64,000 bases of DNA from Undaria pinnatifida (taxonomy: Eukaryota; Sar; Phaeophyceae; Laminariales; Alariaceae): assembly GCA_012845835.1 (NCBI GenBank), contig JABAKD010000020.1, forward strand, positions 2,676,936 through 2,740,935, in the 5' to 3' direction. The translations under genes were made by a program, and so were the position numbers. Under the pieces are notes generated by a model. That model was not told where the DNA came from, did not search any database, and saw only the letters and a program-made list of their open reading frames with translations. Position 1 is the first letter of the stretch. Every line of letters starts with the position of its first letter. Shown in pieces: positions 11,618-62,900 of the stretch.

Positions 11618-12008
11618 TGCAGTGCTTAGTTTGGGTAAGCTATTGGTTAACCTTTTGCAAGTGGTCAAACGGACTATTACCTTACTTAACAAATGGCGTC
11701 GTCGCCAGACCGTAGGTTTTTGGATCGTGGGTTCGAGTCCCACCATCCACAATAAATAATACTCGAAGTAATAAACTTTTCAGATTTTCCCCATCCATGT
11801 CGAACTTGAAAAAAAATAATATAATAGGTATCCCCAGAAAATTAAACGGCTTGGATATTGACAGGTCCGCCCGTATATCCGGCCGACCACATACTATGTA
11901 TCCCGCCGTTTCAGGGGGGAAGAGTGTTGTTATGCTCAGTTTGGGTAAGCTATTATTGGTCAACCTCTTGCAAGTTGTCAAACGGACTACTACTAATACC
12001 TCACTATC
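11618..12008 (+). mobile_element. TRIM-b copy (two short LTRs)
   Basis: LTR-like repeats at about 11618-11691 and 11935-12008 share TTTGGGTAAGCTATT and GTCAAACGGACTA. The first is followed by AA and then TGGCGTCGTCGCCAG, a primer site complementary to a tRNA 3' end. The internal part has a sense T-arm-like GTGGGTTCGAGTCCCAC, AAACTTTTCAGATTTTC and a purine tract CAGGGGGGAAGAG just before the second LTR. No coding capacity; clearly aged. Confidence 0.65.
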
Positions 12009-49504: not shown

Positions 49505-50104
49505 GTATAATAAACACTACCAAGCAGGTGATATCACCTCATTACCTATCCAACCAGCTATGCCTCATCTCCAATTGTTATAAGGCTTAGTTTGGGTAAG
49601 CTATTGGTGAACCTTTTGCAAGTGGTCAAACGGACTAATACCCCACTAATACCTTAACAAATGGCGTCGTCGGCAGGACCATGGGTTTTGGGGGTCGTGG
49701 GTTTGATCCCCACCATCCACAATAATAAACTTTTCAGATTTTCCCCATGTCGAACTTAAAAAATACTCTCCCTGGTACCCCAGGGAATGAAACGGCTTGG
49801 ATAAATGACAGGTCCGCCCGTATATCCGGCCGACCTGCTATCCCGCCGTTTCAGGGGGGGGAGTGTTATAAGGCTTAGTTTGGGTAAGCTATTGGTTAAC
49901 CTTTTGCAAGTGGTCAAACGGACTAATACCCCACTAATACCTTAACGCAATTCATTTATCCCCCTCGCCTCCCCTCCCCGCCCCCTCCTTCCCCACCATC
50001 CGCACCATCGCCTAGGCCGATTAATAGTCACGTGTAGTAAAGTTCCTCCCAGGTATGATACATTCATGCGACCTAAAGGGGTTTGATTCCCCCCCCCCTT
50101 CGCC
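49505..50104 (+). repeat. Family A 5' half, interrupted by TRIM-b
   Basis: GTGATATCACCTCATTACC and GCTATGCCTCATCTCCAAT lead to the insertion at 49576. The copy resumes with CAATTCATTTATCC, then CACCATCGCCTAGGCCG. The undisturbed sequence CAGTAGCTCCAATTCG is seen at about 52275. Confidence 0.75.
49576..49947 (+). mobile_element. TRIM-b copy, 372 bp, with target duplication
   Basis: LTRs of 84 bp at 49576-49659 and 49864-49947 (TGTTATAAGGCTTAG...). The primer site TGGCGTCGTCGGCAGG starts two bases after the first LTR; the purine tract CAGGGGGGGAG ends at the second LTR. CAAT flanks both sides (49572-49575 and 49948-49951), and an empty site exists in other family A copies. No coding capacity. 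One of the smallest LTR-type elements one could expect (SMART-like). Confidence 0.75.
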
Positions 50105-50198
50105 CCCCCCCCTCGTTTTGTTCTCTCCCGTCGCCCCACCTAAAATCAAAATCTGCCCGAGTTATAAACACTACCAGACAGTTGATATCACCTCATTA

Positions 50199-50955
50199 TG
50201 TTAAGATACGGCCTCGAAAGGCCTGTGATTATCCAAATATGAGATTATTGGGATGGGTTTCGTATGATAAGGTTGGCGTTTTATATTCGGGAAAGTTAGG
50301 AAATAGATCGGAGGCACGTGCCTCCGATCTCAGAAGCCATCCGGGGCTCTGGTGGAATCGAATAAAGCTACGTCTCTACGAGGGCAAAGAAAGTGAGTAC
50401 TCTCCGAGGACCTGCTCAATTGGCAGACCTGCAGGGGACACTCTGTGTCCCCACCCAATAACCTTACATATGGCGTCGTCGGCAGGGCTCGAACCTGCGC
50501 GTGAAACCACAATGTACCAATCCTCCTCCTTGATGGATGACTTTTGCCTTGTTGTAGGGTCTGCGTTTCCTTCAACTGCTTTTCTTCGCGTGTTCCTGGC
50601 TCCATAGCCAGACCGTTAGAGGTGTGGGAGTGGGTTTTGAGGAGCCGCATCTTCGACTCACGGTCTAGTTCGTGGAACCGGAGTTTCCCCGAACCTCCCA
50701 TATTTCTGCATATGCGACTCATCAGGGTGGGCAAGTGTTAAGATACAGCCTCGAAAGGCTTGTAATTATCCGAATTTGAGATCATTTGGATGGGTTTCGT
50801 ATGATAAGGTTGGCGTTTTATATTCGGGGAAGTTAGGAAATAGATCGGAGGCACTCAGAAGCCATCCGGGGCTTTGGTGGAATCGAATAAAGCTACGTCT
50901 TTACAATTGGCAGACCTGCAGAGGGCACTTTGTGTCCCCACCCAATAACCTTACA
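50199..50955 (+). mobile_element. TRIM-a: 757-bp LTR-type element with tRNA T-arm-length primer site
   Basis: Terminal direct repeats at 50199-50468 and 50736-50955 start TGTTAAGATAC and end CCTTACA. Two bases after the first LTR comes TGGCGTCGTCGGCAGG, complementary to a tRNA 3' end with CCA. The complementarity continues into a complete T-arm (GCAGGTTCGAGCCCTGC on the other strand). A purine-rich AGGGTGGGCAAG precedes the second LTR. ATTA flanks both ends inside a family A copy. No gag or pol; TRIM-type and aged, since the LTRs differ in length. Confidence 0.78.
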
Positions 50956-51080
50956 ATTACCTTTCTAGCCATTCATGCCGTAGCTTCCATTCATACCCCC
51001 CCTCCCCTCCAACGCCCTTTCCTTCCCCACCACCCGCACCATCGCCTAGACCTAGCACCAGGCGTGTAGCAAGCTCCTCA

Positions 51081-56129: not shown

Positions 56130-59100
56130 TCGTCGGTGGACTGCATTGCTGTAAACATGGAGAACTTCACTGGCAACACCACAAGCAACCTCGTCAACAT
56201 CGTACGAGGAGTCGCGTACTACGACGGCGAGAAACCCGACGAATTCGAGGACTGTAACCAAAAGGCGTTCTTCAAACTTAGCATACAACGCCCTGGCACA
56301 TTTGATTGCTGTGAAGGAAGGTCAAGCCAGGCCGACCGAGGAACCGATCAAGCGAAGGAGAACGAGGGGGGCACCGAAACTACCCCCCCTGTAATTCTGT
56401 TGACATTCGGACTGCTGTGTACACACCTGGGAGGACCTTGCTGCGGTGCCAGGCCGTGTTCAACCGGGCCAATCAGGACCCGTATGCGAGCCTGTACTTG
56501 GTGACGGACAAGACGGCGGCTGTTGGTAAATCAGTGGCTTCTGGAGAAAGGTATTATATTAGAGAGACCAATGTCTGGAGAGACAGGTCAGGAAGTGGAG
56601 TGGGTCATGTGGGCCAACTCTCCACAGCCCAGTAACAACCGCTCGTAGTCGAATACCTAAACCTCCTCGCATAGTGCCTACTCGTACATACCCGTGGGAC
56701 TGCTCGTGGGTGATACCACGAGACGATCCCTGTAACTTACCTCCGTGACACAACGTATGTAACTGTAACTTATTGCTAGGCTGTTCGTTGAGACAAGCTA
56801 TATCGTGTTAGCAACACTACAGGAATGTTCCTATTCGTCAATGTGTCCGACGTACCGACATACCAACGTACCGTACACACCACTACGGTCCGATGTATAA
56901 CTCGTGCACATGTACAATCTACCGAAGTACCGTAGCACCACAAGAAGAGTATTCTGGTATAACAACATACAATCAACAGTTCTGCTATTCAAACCAACCA
57001 ATCAGGGTTTCACCGCAGTACAGTTGATACATACATGCCGCTATCACGAACACCCTCCCTAGGGGCTGTTGTATCTACCAGACCAAATACATATCAAACA
57101 AAAACAAAAACAAAACGACTCAGACTTCTACTTCTTGATACCAAGTGCAAAGTCGCGGTGAACTTCAAAAAGATCTCTCGGCAACGCCTTCGTGAGGATG
57201 TCCGCGTGTTGTTTCTCGCTGGGGACGTGGGTGACTTCGATCACACCCTCCTCGGTCAGATTCCTAGGAAAGTGGTGCCTCACATCGATGTGCTTACTCC
57301 TACTCGAGCTCAGCGGGTTCTCTGCGAGCGCAATCGCCCCCTCGTTGTCTTCAAGGACATCTATCTTACGAGGCTTCGCACTAGGCCCCAGGAACTGAAG
57401 AATTCCGTTTACAAACAGAGCCTCCTTTACACCATCTCCCATCGCAAGATACTCTGCTTCTGAAGTTGACTGTGAAACGCATTTCTGCGTCCTAGAAATC
57501 CAAACTACAAGCATCGCCGCCACGAAAACCATCGCACCCGAAACTGATCTACGGTCAGTGGCCCTACTTGCAAAGTCAGCATCTACATACACCAACGTGC
57601 CTGCGTCTACCGAACTATCCTGCTTGAACTTCAAAGTCAGATGCGCCGTTTCCAGAAGATAATTGAGAATCTTCTGAGCTGCCTTCCAGTGGCTCCTCTT
57701 TGGTTCGTGAGAGTGCCTCGCCACCGCCCGCACAGCATTCGCGATGTCGGGCCTTGTCTGGCTGGCGATCCACATCAGGCTCCCCACCACCTCTCGGAAC
57801 GGCACATCTCCTGCCCCCTCATCCTCCATCACGGACCTGTTATCATTGGCAAGGGAAGCAGGTATCGAGCTGGTGCGACATATATTGAATCTCTCGAGAA
57901 CACTCCTGATATAACTTTCCTGAGAAATCTCAATCGTACCAGCCTCACGGTCGCGAATATATTCACAACCTAGAAAGAACTTGACCTCCCCCAAGTCCTT
58001 CGTAGGAAGAGAGTCACCTAGTGCTGCCACAACCACCTTGGCAAGGCTCTTACTTCCTGCATACAGAATGTCATCCACGTGGATCGCGACCATCCCCAAT
58101 ACCTCGTCTCCCATCATGAAACGCAGGACACAGGGGTCAGACATTGACTGCTCAAAACCACTCCTCTTCAGTTCCGACACCAGCCTCTTGTAAAATGTCC
58201 TAGAAGCCTGACTTCAATCCGTACAAACTCTTGTTCAAACGGACAACCTTTCCTGACATCGACCCGCAGCCAGGAGGCAACTTCATGAACACCTCGTGAT
58301 CCAATTCCGACTGAAAAAATGCTTGCTCAATATCCCAGTGGAGTAACTCCAAATTGTACAAACACGCCAACACTATCAGCAATCGTACAGATGCAGCATT
58401 TGCGGTAGGCGAGAATGTCTCAAGATAATCCACACCATACTTCTGCTTTAAGCCCTTCGCTACAAGCCTAGCCTTGGCCTTCACTATCTTTCCTGTTTCG
58501 TCTGCTTTCCACTTGAAAACCCATCTAGCATCAATCACATTACAGCCTATCGGGACTTTTACTGCCAACGTGAACGTTCCTGCTCTTATCAAGCCTTCAA
58601 TTTCGGCAGACCTGGCTCCTTCCCAAATCTTAGCGTACTTCGAACGCTGGGCTTCCTGATAACTACCAGGCTCCGATTCTACATCCTGAGCCAGTTCTTT
58701 CGGCAATTTCGTCTCATCACCTGCTCTCTGCTCCGACAACAATGAGTACACGACCTCTGTCGCGAAGATGGGTCCTAGGGTGGCCATGAGGCCGGGTACA
58801 CCCTGCTGGTTGACTGCACGAGTTTGCGCGCGAGTCCTACCTTCTCTCACTTCATCGTTTTCACGCGCGGAAGTATTAAAGTCAGCAAGCTCGGCCACAT
58901 GCCGCGGACGACGAGCGGCTGGAGGGGATGCCTCCGCCTCTACCAGTCCTCCCGACCCAATCGACTCTTCATCATCATGCCCTCCCTGCCCCATCGACTC
59001 TACCTCATCATCCCCTCCCAGATCCCCCATCTCTACCTCTCCTGATTACTGCCCTCCCTGGCCCTCCCCGTCATTCACAGGCGAAGACACAGAAGGAGCT

Positions 59101-62100
59101 ACACTACCAGAAGAAATGTTCACGGGGGCAGACGGTTCAGCAGGGGAAGATGGAACAGAAAAGGACGGGCCTATACTACCTGCGCCAACACTCTCAACCT
59201 CCTCGACTCCCGCACCAGAGGGCACGGCATCACGTTTCAAAAGTGTGTGAGCGCCTCTTCTTCCCACAAGCGGCCATATCTCGGTTTCAACATCGTCGTC
59301 ACTATCCCCCCCTCCCTCCTCTGCTACCTCTATCGGCAAAGAAGGTTGCAGCGGAGGGAGCTGTGACGGCAGCACCTCCCACGTCACATCCCTCGTTTCT
59401 TGAATAGTACCAGCCCTCGTAAGTACTCTATGACAATCACGCGGGTGGTCTCTCGAAGGACCGACATAGAAACAACTCTCACCCTTCGGCAGCAGCTTTG
59501 ACGGTCGCTGCCACCTACAGTAGGCGGGCTTCAAAAACGGATACGGTCTAGCGGGACGAGGTTCACCATACCACATTTCATACGGCGATTTGGATTCAGG
59601 GTTAGCAGAACACGCAGTGTGGTTCATCGCTTCGCAAGCCCAGTGCATAGCCTCAGCCCAGAGTTTATCAGTCTTAGGTAACTGTACATGCCCAAAAAGG
59701 ACTTTAGCTTGAATACGAGCCGCCATCGCGGCCTCCTCTATCAATCCCAGCCCACGCTCTGCAACACCATTATATTGCGGACTATAAGCCGGTGTGAACT
59801 CTTGTTTGATCAAAAGCTCGTTGCACACAGATGCAAACTCCCCCCCGAAAAACTCCCCACCATTGTCAGACCTAACAATCTCAACCAATGACGGGACACC
59901 ATCAGCACGCACACTCGCAAGAAAACTCCGGAAAGCACTGCCAGCGTCTGATTTATTTTTCAGGAAATACAGCCATGCACGTCTCGTGAAATCATCCTTC
60001 ACAATCATGGGGTAATGTTTTCCCCCTACGGACGCAATGTTCTTCCTTCCTCCCAGGTCAACAAAAACTCTGCCCAACTTTTTATCCGATCGAGTTGTAG
60101 TTTCCCGAACGATTCCTTTCCGAATAGCCTTCGACATCGAACACCCTGAACAAGCATGCATGTCACCAACCAACTTGGTATCTAATCGCTTTGCAGTAGT
60201 GCGAAGCAGACCCTCGTGCGAATGTGCATAAATAATGTGGAAATCGTTGATATCCATCGTAGTTTCATGCTTGGGGTTGGCGGGAGTGAGAGCAGCCAAC
60301 ACCGTACCAACAGAGGCTTCTCCTAGGCGACACGCAGACGCAATCAGCATGCCATCGAAGTTCTGAAAAGTTACTTGTCCATTGAATGCAGTCATAACAC
60401 CATTAGGACCACCAAGACCATTCCATGACTCACCATCAAACTCTGCACTCGGAGAAAAGAGATTATACCCCAAGTTGGGAGAGTACAATACGTTCTTCAA
60501 TTCCACGGAGAACTCACTGTCAGCAGTCACAAATACCAAGTCTAGCGTTCCGGAGTAAGCTACTTCACAAGACACGCCACCAATTCCATTCACACTTCTG
60601 TGGCAAGGCTTCAAGTCTCTCATGCAAGACAGGGAATCAGTCATGTGATATGAAGTGCCTGTGTCATCATACCAATCCTCGACATATCTAGCCTTGTTGA
60701 CAGCTTTCAGGATCATATCATTACTGACGGCGCTCATAATCAGATCATCACGGGACGTCATCAGACACTTCAGACCAGAGACATCATACCACATCCTACT
60801 CAAATCATCACACGCCTTCAAGACCATGTTTTTGTGGCTGTCTTTCTTCAAGCAGTCGAACAGAAACCACCAAGCAATCTCATGCTGACGCAGTACACCA
60901 ACGCTGTATCCCTTCTCTACCCAAGGGGTCAAGTCGAAATTAACGTCGGCGATTTTAATGTCGATATCACAGGTGAACGGCTCGCTCAGATTGTAGTGAC
61001 GAGCTTTGAGCAGAAAATTCTGCGACCATGAAGGATACGATACATCAGTACCGATAAATTCAGGAGCCTTGGGAACTTTCTTGAAAAGACCCCCACCCAA
61101 GCTCTCCCCCGAACTACTGTCAGCCGCTGGGATCAGTGTGTTCCCACTAGCGACTTTTCCCCGCCACTCACTTGCTGAGGTAGTGGGCGGAACAGAGGAC
61201 TGGCTACCTAAAGCCCCACCAACAGTCCCGTCAACCGAACCAAAGTTTACTGCAGAAACAGAGGAACGATTCTCATCAGAAACACGCGGGTTCAAGCCTG
61301 GGTCTACAACACCCCTACTCCCAACCCTCATGTCGGACACGCCAAAGCCTAGGGTATCGCCTCCCGTACTCCCCGCGGTCCTACCGGCGGCACCCGATTG
61401 GTGCACACCAGACTCTAGTTCGATGCCTCGCGGCGCAGCACGCGAACTAGAGGACTCCACATTCTCCCTCTGGTGTGTCTCAACAACTGTCTGGAGCATC
61501 TGCTGCTGGTTAGAAAACATATCCAGCATTTGAGACACTCGAGACTCTAAGGAATCCATTCTCTCACCAAAGCCCTGCGGGTCACCCTGTTGGTTTGCCG
61601 CAGGGTCACCTCCCTCCTGTTCAGCCATGACGAGGCCGGTTGATCAAGCCGCCCTCACAGTCTCGTCGAACACAGTCCAGGGGGACGTACAGCAGTCGAC
61701 CGATAGCGCTATAGCGTGTTGGTAAATCAGTGGCTTCTGGAGAAAGGTATTATATTAGAGAGACCAATGTCTGGAGAGACAGGTCAGGAAGTGGAGTGGG
61801 TCATGTGGGCCAACTCTCCACAGCCCAGTAACAACCGCTCGTAGTCGAATACCTAAACCTCCTCGCATAGTGCCTACTCGTACATACCCGTGGGACTGCT
61901 CGTGGGTGATACCACGAGACGATCCCTGTAACTTACCTCCGTGACACAACGTATGTAACTGTAACTTATTGCTAGGCTGTTCGTTGAGACAAGCTATATC
62001 GTGTTAGCAACACTACAGGAATGTTCCTATTCGTCAATGTGTCCGACGTACCGACATACCAACGTACCGTACACACCACTACGGTCCGATGTATAACTCG

Positions 62101-62900
62101 TGCACATGTACAATCTACCGAAGTACCGTAGCACCACAAGAAGAGTATTCTGGTACAACAACATGCAATCAACAGTTCTGCTATTCAAACCAACCAATCA
62201 GAGTTTCACCGCAGTACAGTTGATACATACATGCCGCTATCACGAACAGCGGCTTTCCCGTTGACTGTCCACGCCTGCGACAATCGCAGAATCCGTTTTG
62301 ACGGGGAAAAGTCGACGAAATAAGGGGAGGCCAACCATGTAGGGTCGTACAAGAGCCATCCGCACTCTGTAGGCGGTCCTCGCAATTTCAAACCATGAAT
62401 CAAGACGAGGGTCCCGACCGCTTCGTCATGCAGGCTAAACGCCCCGGTAGCTGACCGGTTGCCTCGCAGGAACCTGTCGCCGAGCGACACTGAACAGATA
62501 TATATATATGAATGTCCAAGGCTTCCCGGAGAAGTACAGAAACACCATGTAGACGACGTCCAAGGATCCCGACTTCGATCTGCCGAAGATGCAGGCGACC
62601 ATGCGCCAAATGTACTTGATTTGTCTGTCGTACAACAATGGCAAGGGTGAACGTATCGCGGGCCTGGCATGGCCATGTCGGCGGAGCCAGCTATCGAACC
62701 CAAGGTCATGGTCTGTCACAACTGCGGTAGGCTCAGGCATTGCTCACGCGACTGCGCCGTGCCTGGCAAGGCCTACGGGAACGGCAATAAGTCCGTTAAA
62801 CAGACGAACGTTGGATCAGAGGGTCGTCACTGAGTCTAAGTGGTACACTGCGCACAAAACGGCCATGCACAACAACACCAGGTGCTACATGTGAGGAGCC
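56130..62900 (+). mobile_element. Older gag-bearing retroelement relic, interrupted by a copia element
   Basis: To the left of the copia insertion (about 56157-56520) lies gag-like sequence starting MENFTGNTTSN. To the right (62249 to about 62895) lies more gag-like sequence, with a CCHC zinc knuckle (CHNCGRLRHCSRDC) and an HKT..HN...C motif typical of copia-type gag. It is a broken relic; only gag-like parts are visible and no LTR pair was found. Its orientation is opposite to that of the inserted element. Confidence 0.65.
56521..62248 (-). mobile_element. Ty1/copia LTR retrotransposon, nearly whole
   Basis: 5.7 kb, minus orientation. LTRs of 532 bp at 56521-57052 and 61717-62248 begin TGTTGG and end CGAACA on the plus strand, and differ at about three positions by eye. 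The 5-bp duplication GCGGC flanks it (56516-56520, 62249-62253). Parts from 5' to 3': gag-like region, protease motif DTGTSYHMT, zinc-binding GAG-pre-integrase region, and integrase core with DNGGEF and YSPQYNGVAERG (roughly 59.0-61.6 kb); then reverse transcriptase with HVDDILYAGS and RNase H with YVDADFA and TSEAEYLA (roughly 57.1-59.0 kb). Domain order integrase before RT defines copia. Purine tract AGGGAGGG lies next to the 3' LTR. About two breaks are apparent. Recent insertion judged from LTR identity. Confidence 0.95.

Follow-up and report, generated by a model that had tools for sequence, protein, structure and literature searches.

Antisense copies of primer tRNA-Ser in miniature LTR retrotransposons of Undaria pinnatifida and their probable origin by read-through of modified bases

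Why should a long terminal repeat (LTR) element carry, behind its primer binding site (PBS), the antisense of a far longer part of a transfer RNA (tRNA) than priming usually leaves? The question is raised by a miniature element of 757 bp at 50199-50955 in a stretch of 64,000 nucleotides from the brown alga Undaria pinnatifida (GenBank assembly GCA_012845835.1, contig JABAKD010000020.1, positions 2,676,936 to 2,740,935), here called the window. The stop of reverse transcriptase (RT) at 1-methyladenosine 58 (m1A58) is the textbook reason why a provirus keeps only 18 nt of its primer tRNA. The original prediction, made from the letters of this DNA, had offered two answers: the primer site is exceptionally long, or the element has acquired a copy of its primer tRNA. 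Very probably we are dealing with a miniature, non-autonomous LTR retrotransposon primed by tRNA-Ser, whose modified primer was copied by read-through during plus-strand strong-stop synthesis.

An antisense tRNA-Ser behind the 5′ LTR

The miniature LTR element with an antisense tRNA behind its 5′ LTR is confirmed as real. The two LTRs and the ATTA target repeats lie where they had been predicted and, as claimed, the complement of CCA, a discriminator G, seven acceptor bases and a perfect T stem-loop occupies 50471-50498. The proposal that the primer site reaches through the T-arm proved right as to the T-arm and too modest as to extent, since alignment to the host gene gives CCA plus 41 nt with two mismatches, past the T-arm and into the anticodon stem. 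Within the T-loop, the single difference from the gene is T to C at position 60. The search for a host tRNA with this acceptor and T-arm was successful, as GCAGGTTCGAGTCCTGCCGACGACG terminates six tRNA-Ser(AGA) genes, and a chance match is thereby excluded. Beyond the reach of the alignment, the motif CCAATCC would read as inosine 34 (I34) turned into G, a reading that is weak when taken alone.

Six host tRNA-Ser(AGA) genes (L099, L100, L103, L104, L105, L111) and four tRNA-Ser(CGA) genes (L118, L126, L127, L129) were identified by ARAGORN among the loci obtained with tRNA-like queries. All ten carry G26 and A58, position 34 is A or C, and a T-run behind each gene was recognised by eye. TGG precedes the discriminator complement in none of 11 gene-like loci, and no LTR lies beside the ten genes in the 50-odd bases displayed. 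A further gene-like locus in the tRNA-Ser cluster (L132, G000:C24:6755695-6755776) carries an additional base in its anticodon arm, and no anticodon was called for it; locus L116 resembles an element copy of it.

The element search of the alga's own genome (511,146,479 bases in 68 contigs) returned 88 matches, 40 of 4098 candidates having been scored. Two relatives (L010, L011) carry the antisense tRNA as well, to positions 30 and 35. Five others (L009, L033, L026, L034, L041) have an 18-nt PBS, with one mismatch in L026, followed by other sequence, and in L022, L024 and L036 the match spans about 12 nt only. The 18-nt PBS of the window element equals the length found in some relatives. Three long relatives (L049, L051, L052), with two LTRs about 6-9 kb apart, have their LTR in common with the window element, as well as its last 206 internal nucleotides. 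They are candidates for an autonomous partner by LTR, and their matches to rve are below the cut-off: L051 shows RVT_1 and then rve, the RT-then-integrase order of Ty3/gypsy, while L052 shows rve. The PBS of L049 (CGGCGTCGACGGCAGGAC) matches at 17 of 18 positions, stops just before position 58 and gives way to unrelated sequence; in L051 and L052 the tRNA match covers about 10-13 nt only. Copies lacking a tRNA match after the LTR had been named as a possible refutation, and many relatives do lack it, while 63 junctions carry antisense tRNA-Ser; such relatives should exist if each tRNA copy goes back to a separate, new event.

The two LTRs of the window element differ at 13 of 220 aligned bases, with additional gaps of 12 nt and 38 nt, so that this copy is not young. 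Its putative polypurine tract (PPT; AGGGTGGGCAAG) is rich in purines yet interrupted. No Pfam match was obtained for the internal region (read in one frame with stops as X) or for an overlapping 174-aa open reading frame. Across the window no Rfam match attained gathering level, and even with E values up to 1 none was obtained in 50440-50760; a pattern scan of viral_contigs gave no match. Scanning both strands of the window for 5-bp stems on a TTYRA loop yielded five matches including this T-arm; two of the other four lie in a second miniature family (family B, described below) and two are apparently due to chance.

Changes at positions 26, 34 and 58

In eukaryotic tRNA-Ser, m1A58, N2,N2-dimethylguanosine 26 (m2,2G26) and I34 are usual. 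Copies of the tRNA were collected with DNA queries, for each of which 491-543 first-look candidates were obtained and 40 scored; together with the element search these gave 63 distinct junctions of LTR, TGG (in 59) and antisense tRNA-Ser, a lower bound on the copy number in the genome. The first and third queries carried T58 and C34, the second A26, G34 and A58, and the fourth was the unmodified gene, on which the main statistics rest. All 40 scored matches of this last query (L094-L113, L114-L130, L131-L133, L075, L076, L080, L084) were inspected, and comprise 11 gene-like loci and 29 LTR-linked copies. Full-length queries favour full-length copies. Before counting, the 17 matches of a tandem array (L057-L073) were merged into one row, identical letters by script and L061 by hand, and the 11 gene-like loci, the second arm of a palindrome (L092) and L002-L008 (the same places as other loci) were dropped; the short-PBS relatives stand outside the 63-copy table. 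The limit for accepting a row was 3 differences each for a 17-base core and for the PBS core (4 in a later script), because of which more decayed copies were missed. LTR types were set by short motifs at the LTR end.

Among the 29 copies found with the unmodified gene, position 26 is changed in every one (A24 T4 C1) and position 58 in 18 (T14 G2 C1, deletion 1), while position 34 reads G18 C9 A1 T1, with G in 18 of the 19 copies that have a purine there. The remaining positions are changed at 23 of 1682 bases (1.4%), the next worst single position at 2/29. The full table of 63 copies gives T40 A16 G4 C1 and two deletions at position 58, A32 T6 C2 G8 and one deletion at position 26 (49 copies reaching there) and G34 C25 T1 A1 at position 34 (A or C in the genes found), against 60 differences from the gene in 3234 bases elsewhere. 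In an earlier 57-row table, no change occurs at position 9 (0/33) or at position 37 (0/55), two sites where misreading is frequent in other tRNAs. The copies with C34 fit an unchanged CGA gene, and those with G34 match the AGA gene provided that inosine is read as G; a PBS of the GTCGAC type occurs in 16/25 C34 copies vs 1/34 G34 copies, which partly agrees with this sorting. In all, 42 combinations of LTR type with bases at 34, 58 and 26 occur among the 63 copies. That the primer tRNA was copied into the element, the second answer of the original prediction, is strongly supported by the seven LTR types, by the changes at usually modified positions and by TGG (from CCA) before the discriminator in 59/63 copies. 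The presence of the modifications in this host, to which the pattern of changes points, is probable.

The ends of the tRNA copies fall at positions 26-29 in 16/63 copies and at positions 1-6 in 39/63, the latter being enriched because three of the queries were full length; in 26 rows from loci L054-L093, 16 end at 26-29. Stopping before position 26 is consistent with m2,2G26 as a block. Beyond the tRNA, the 63 junctions fall into 60 groups of downstream sequence. Snap-backs occur at the anticodon stem (L092, a 51-nt inverted match) and at the acceptor stem (L095 and L108, 16 and 15 nt), and L095, L108 and L121 have in common a snap-back into the family B LTR; in a single-strand fold of one full-length copy the acceptor stem is paired (z -2.03). 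Many copies pass, after the tRNA, into sequence known from the long relatives. Joins that can be placed within 3 nt on a long relative number 15/63, at scattered positions, 11 forward and 4 reverse. Two of these are less clear, as L114 enters an LTR and L054 enters a stretch of L048 of which the element limits were not seen. Microhomology at the 15 joins is modest, with a mean of 1.27 nt vs 0.40 random and two joins with 5 and 7 nt.

Proposed mechanism and rival explanations

In the proposed mechanism, RT engaged in plus-strand strong-stop synthesis would miss the stop at m1A58, 18 nt into the primer, and would proceed past this base, often misreading it, and past inosine 34, read as G. It might then often halt at m2,2G26, or misread it, and in other cases go on as far as the tRNA 5′ end. 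Such an over-long single-stranded end could extend on a wrong template, be it downstream element sequence, other DNA, or its own strand, on which it would snap back at the anticodon or acceptor stem. With element cDNA nearer the PPT as template, the interior would be lost and a miniature element would arise in one step. Such misplaced extension would account for the window element, in which the final 206 nt of the parent come after the tRNA copy, and the internal deletion may have arisen in the same event as the tRNA copying. The predominance of forward joins fits extension on element minus-strand cDNA. In L082 and L083 another direct LTR follows at a distance of 0.8-0.9 kb, with identities of 99.6% and 100%, so that over-extended DNA can become a two-LTR insertion; L082 sits among further LTR copies. 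Also in favour of this account, acceptor position 5 and its PBS partner fail to pair (A/A or T/T) in 10/34 full copies, as they would where the element supplied the PBS and a different tRNA isodecoder the body.

Several observations weigh against this account. A58 is kept in 16/63 copies and G26 in 8/49, of which five end at 26, and A34 is kept in L133. The sorting into AGA and CGA copies uses base 34 itself, which makes the statement that C34 is unchanged partly circular. In the gene-like locus L132 the loop reads GG with the extra base, so that a G34 template is possible for L116, its likely copy. The 5′ end of five full G34 copies (L075, L076, L097, L101, L121) is of the GTCGAC type, in contrast to the GTCGTC of the six AGA genes found; either an unsampled isodecoder or a template switch between tRNAs may be responsible. 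The shared downstream join of L096 and L134, of which the tRNA copies differ, may reflect either related copies or a reused join. Furthermore, extension on minus-strand cDNA gives no explanation for the 4/15 reverse joins, and in many copies the stretch after the tRNA is short or of unplaced origin. The window copy, old and decayed near the anticodon, bears no clear modification scar, as it keeps A58 and its alignment ends before position 34; its case rests on its relatives and it is placed by family.

The rival explanation that survives best assigns the copying to a host repair polymerase, acting on a chimeric DNA-tRNA end after nuclear import or integration, instead of to the element's RT. 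The same tRNA source and orientation would arise, 8/14 three-kb loci lack a further direct LTR in the next 1.5 kb or so downstream, a picture that ends joined by repair might give, and the four reversed joins would be accommodated. Nevertheless, the near-identical direct LTR pairs of L082 and L083 indicate that reverse transcription was completed there, and most placed joins match extension on minus-strand cDNA. Copying by a host polymerase is accordingly judged improbable, and RT is the likelier copyist.

Still less credit is given to a selected, unusually long primer site in which pairing of the whole 3′ part of tRNA-Ser strengthens priming, like the extended sites of Ty1, Ty3 and human immunodeficiency virus (HIV). 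The window copy does retain its 41 nt after CCA with two mismatches, and the available parts of the sources describe tRNA contacts beyond the acceptor in Ty1 and Ty3 (PMC5371799) and in HIV (PMC13191261). However, relatives have sites of about 18 nt or of 10-13 nt, the changes at 26 and 58 would spoil the pairing, copies reach the tRNA 5′ end, and with 60 downstream sequences in 63 junctions a propagated long site was not observed save in a tandem array and perhaps in L096/L134. The functional long site, the first answer of the original prediction, was rejected on the short-PBS relatives and the number of downstream sequences. The capture of a tRNA gene, tRNA pseudogene or short interspersed nuclear element, modelled on the tRNA-derived sequences documented in LTRs of Helenus-type terminal-repeat retrotransposons in miniature (TRIMs; PMC10886601, in the part available), is scarcely credible and was rejected, as the tRNA is antisense here, lies at the PBS and outside the LTR, is preceded by the CCA complement in nearly all copies, and has its modified positions changed with varying bases.

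For read-through of the modified primer by RT, the nearest precedents are retroviral. Work by Muthuswami from 2002, cited in PMC7599994, is reportedly associated with the primer over-extension sequence of lentiviruses and spumaviruses. In the portion of PMC13191261 that was available, this sequence is described as a tRNA match beyond 18 nt that adjoins the lentiviral PBS and reflects read-through of m1A58, and m1A58 and I34 are named for tRNA-Ser. The window element resembles it in having the T-loop complement directly after the 18-nt PBS. The lentiviral read-through extends to about position 55 as a consensus feature (PMC13191261, same portion), whereas here it reaches position 27 or the tRNA 5′ end, is accompanied by scars, is lacking in relatives and has its own junction in nearly every copy. 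According to the same portion of that source, HIV strong-stop products stop at m1A58, pseudouridine 55, 5-methyluridine 54 or 2-methylthio-N6-threonylcarbamoyladenosine 37 or run full length (P1-P5). These products and the read-through in a TRMT6 mutant resemble the present case, RT stopping at or passing modified bases or reaching the tRNA 5′ end; according to that review only P2-P4 can be active templates in HIV, whereas P1-like lengths and ends near 27 have been fixed here by the dozens. As far as the available part of PMC12140624 goes, another RT misreads widely at 26 and 58 and also at 34.

Apart from these, the window element resembles a TRIM in its length below 1 kb, two direct LTRs, PBS to host tRNA-Ser, purine-rich if interrupted tract (a putative PPT), 4-bp target repeat, lack of any coding sequence found and long Ty3/gypsy-like relatives; it differs in its internal region, made up of a primer-tRNA copy and, joined to it, the final 206 nt of the parent. 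Helenus, Ajax and Cassandra (TRIMp3) likewise contain small-RNA sequence, which lies inside the LTR in the part of PMC10886601 available, in contrast to the antisense primer tRNA in the internal region here. The tRNA-like Pol III promoter within the LTR that characterises Helenus/TRIMp3 has no counterpart in the window element, the tRNA part being antisense and outside the LTR. Ty1 and Ty3 too are LTR elements that use a tRNA 3′ end for priming and in which the tRNA contacts go past the acceptor stem (PMC5371799, excerpted), and the difference is that here the tRNA part beyond the acceptor is written into DNA. No report of genomic primer-tRNA copies with modification scars was found in the literature at title and abstract level, most subscription journals lying outside the coverage.

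It would follow that read-through at m1A58 was frequent enough for dozens of scars to remain, with directly readable base choices. We lean, with some reserve, towards the wider view that this lineage regularly reads through its modified primer, that over-long strong-stop DNA extends elsewhere on element cDNA to give one-step miniature elements, and that the genome archives the state of m1A58, I34 and m2,2G26 together with RT misreading in vivo. If true, this would reveal the spectrum of in vivo misreading at three modified bases, the primer would have been a mature, edited tRNA (inosine read as G), a one-step origin of miniature LTR elements would be suggested, and past tRNA modification could be read from DNA alone. 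The signature is searchable in any genome with tRNA-primed elements.

Features of the window and related families

Table 1. Positions of the miniature element, its parts and neighbouring LTR elements in the window
Feature	Positions	Strand	Basis
Left target-site duplication, ATTA	50195..50198	+	sequence
5′ LTR, family A, 270 nt, TGTTAAG...CCTTACA	50199..50468	+	
Perfect 26-nt palindrome within the family A LTR	50305..50330		
PBS: complement of CCA, discriminator G, acceptor 3′ strand, T stem 61-65 and positions 60-59	50471..50488	+	
TGG (complement of CCA), after TA following the 5′ LTR	50471..50473		
Complement of discriminator G	50474		
Seven acceptor bases	50475..50481		
Perfect T stem-loop	50482..50498		
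Variable arm match (tRNA match runs on to 50514)	50499..50511		alignment to host gene
Antisense tRNA-Ser from linear position 81 to 41, with two mismatches, covering acceptor, T arm, variable arm and the beginning of the anticodon stem	50474..50514	-	
CCAATCC, probable remaining anticodon arm beyond a 4-5 nt deletion	50517..50523	-	by eye; outside the alignment's reach
206 nt common to the 3′ internal end of long Ty3/gypsy-like relatives (parent's internal remainder)	50530..50735	+	
Purine-rich tract AGGGTGGGCAAG before the 3′ LTR, putative PPT	50724..50735	+	sequence
3′ LTR, 220 nt	50736..50955	+	
Right target-site duplication, ATTA	50956..50959	+	sequence
Family B element	49576-49947		
Family B element	11624-12001	+	
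Family B element	11434-11195	-	
Copia-type element	56521-62248	-	RVT_2, rve

The palindrome within the family A LTR is present in many copies, and half of it is absent from the 3′ LTR of the window element. The Copia-type element has LTRs that are 99.4% identical over 532 nt, and behind its 5′ LTR lies a palindromic sequence (CGCTATAGCGCTATCGG) with no obvious tRNA match by eye.

Family B is a second miniature LTR family with an LTR of 84 nt, of which the first copy has the target repeat CAAT. Its PBS is the same over 16 nt; next come a sense-oriented T-arm, which in the first copy reads GTGGGTTTGATCCCCAC, and an acceptor-like CATCCACA. The family B LTR contains an A-box-like GCAAGTGGTCAAACGGAC, and tRNA-like parts thus flank the PBS on both sides. 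Rfam gave two matches only on family B, far under the curators' cut-offs. The tandem array mentioned above (G000:C13:868340-874147) comprises at least 17 units at a spacing of 359 bp, in each of which a family B LTR end and the PBS are accompanied by a T58-bearing antisense copy of the tRNA and by a short snap-back; it is taken to be a satellite derived from an over-extended element. Finally, positions 1139-1719 of L041 form a chimera, in which a family B LTR and an 18-nt PBS are joined straight to a family A internal end and a family A 3′ LTR, and which looks like the result of recombination at the PBS.
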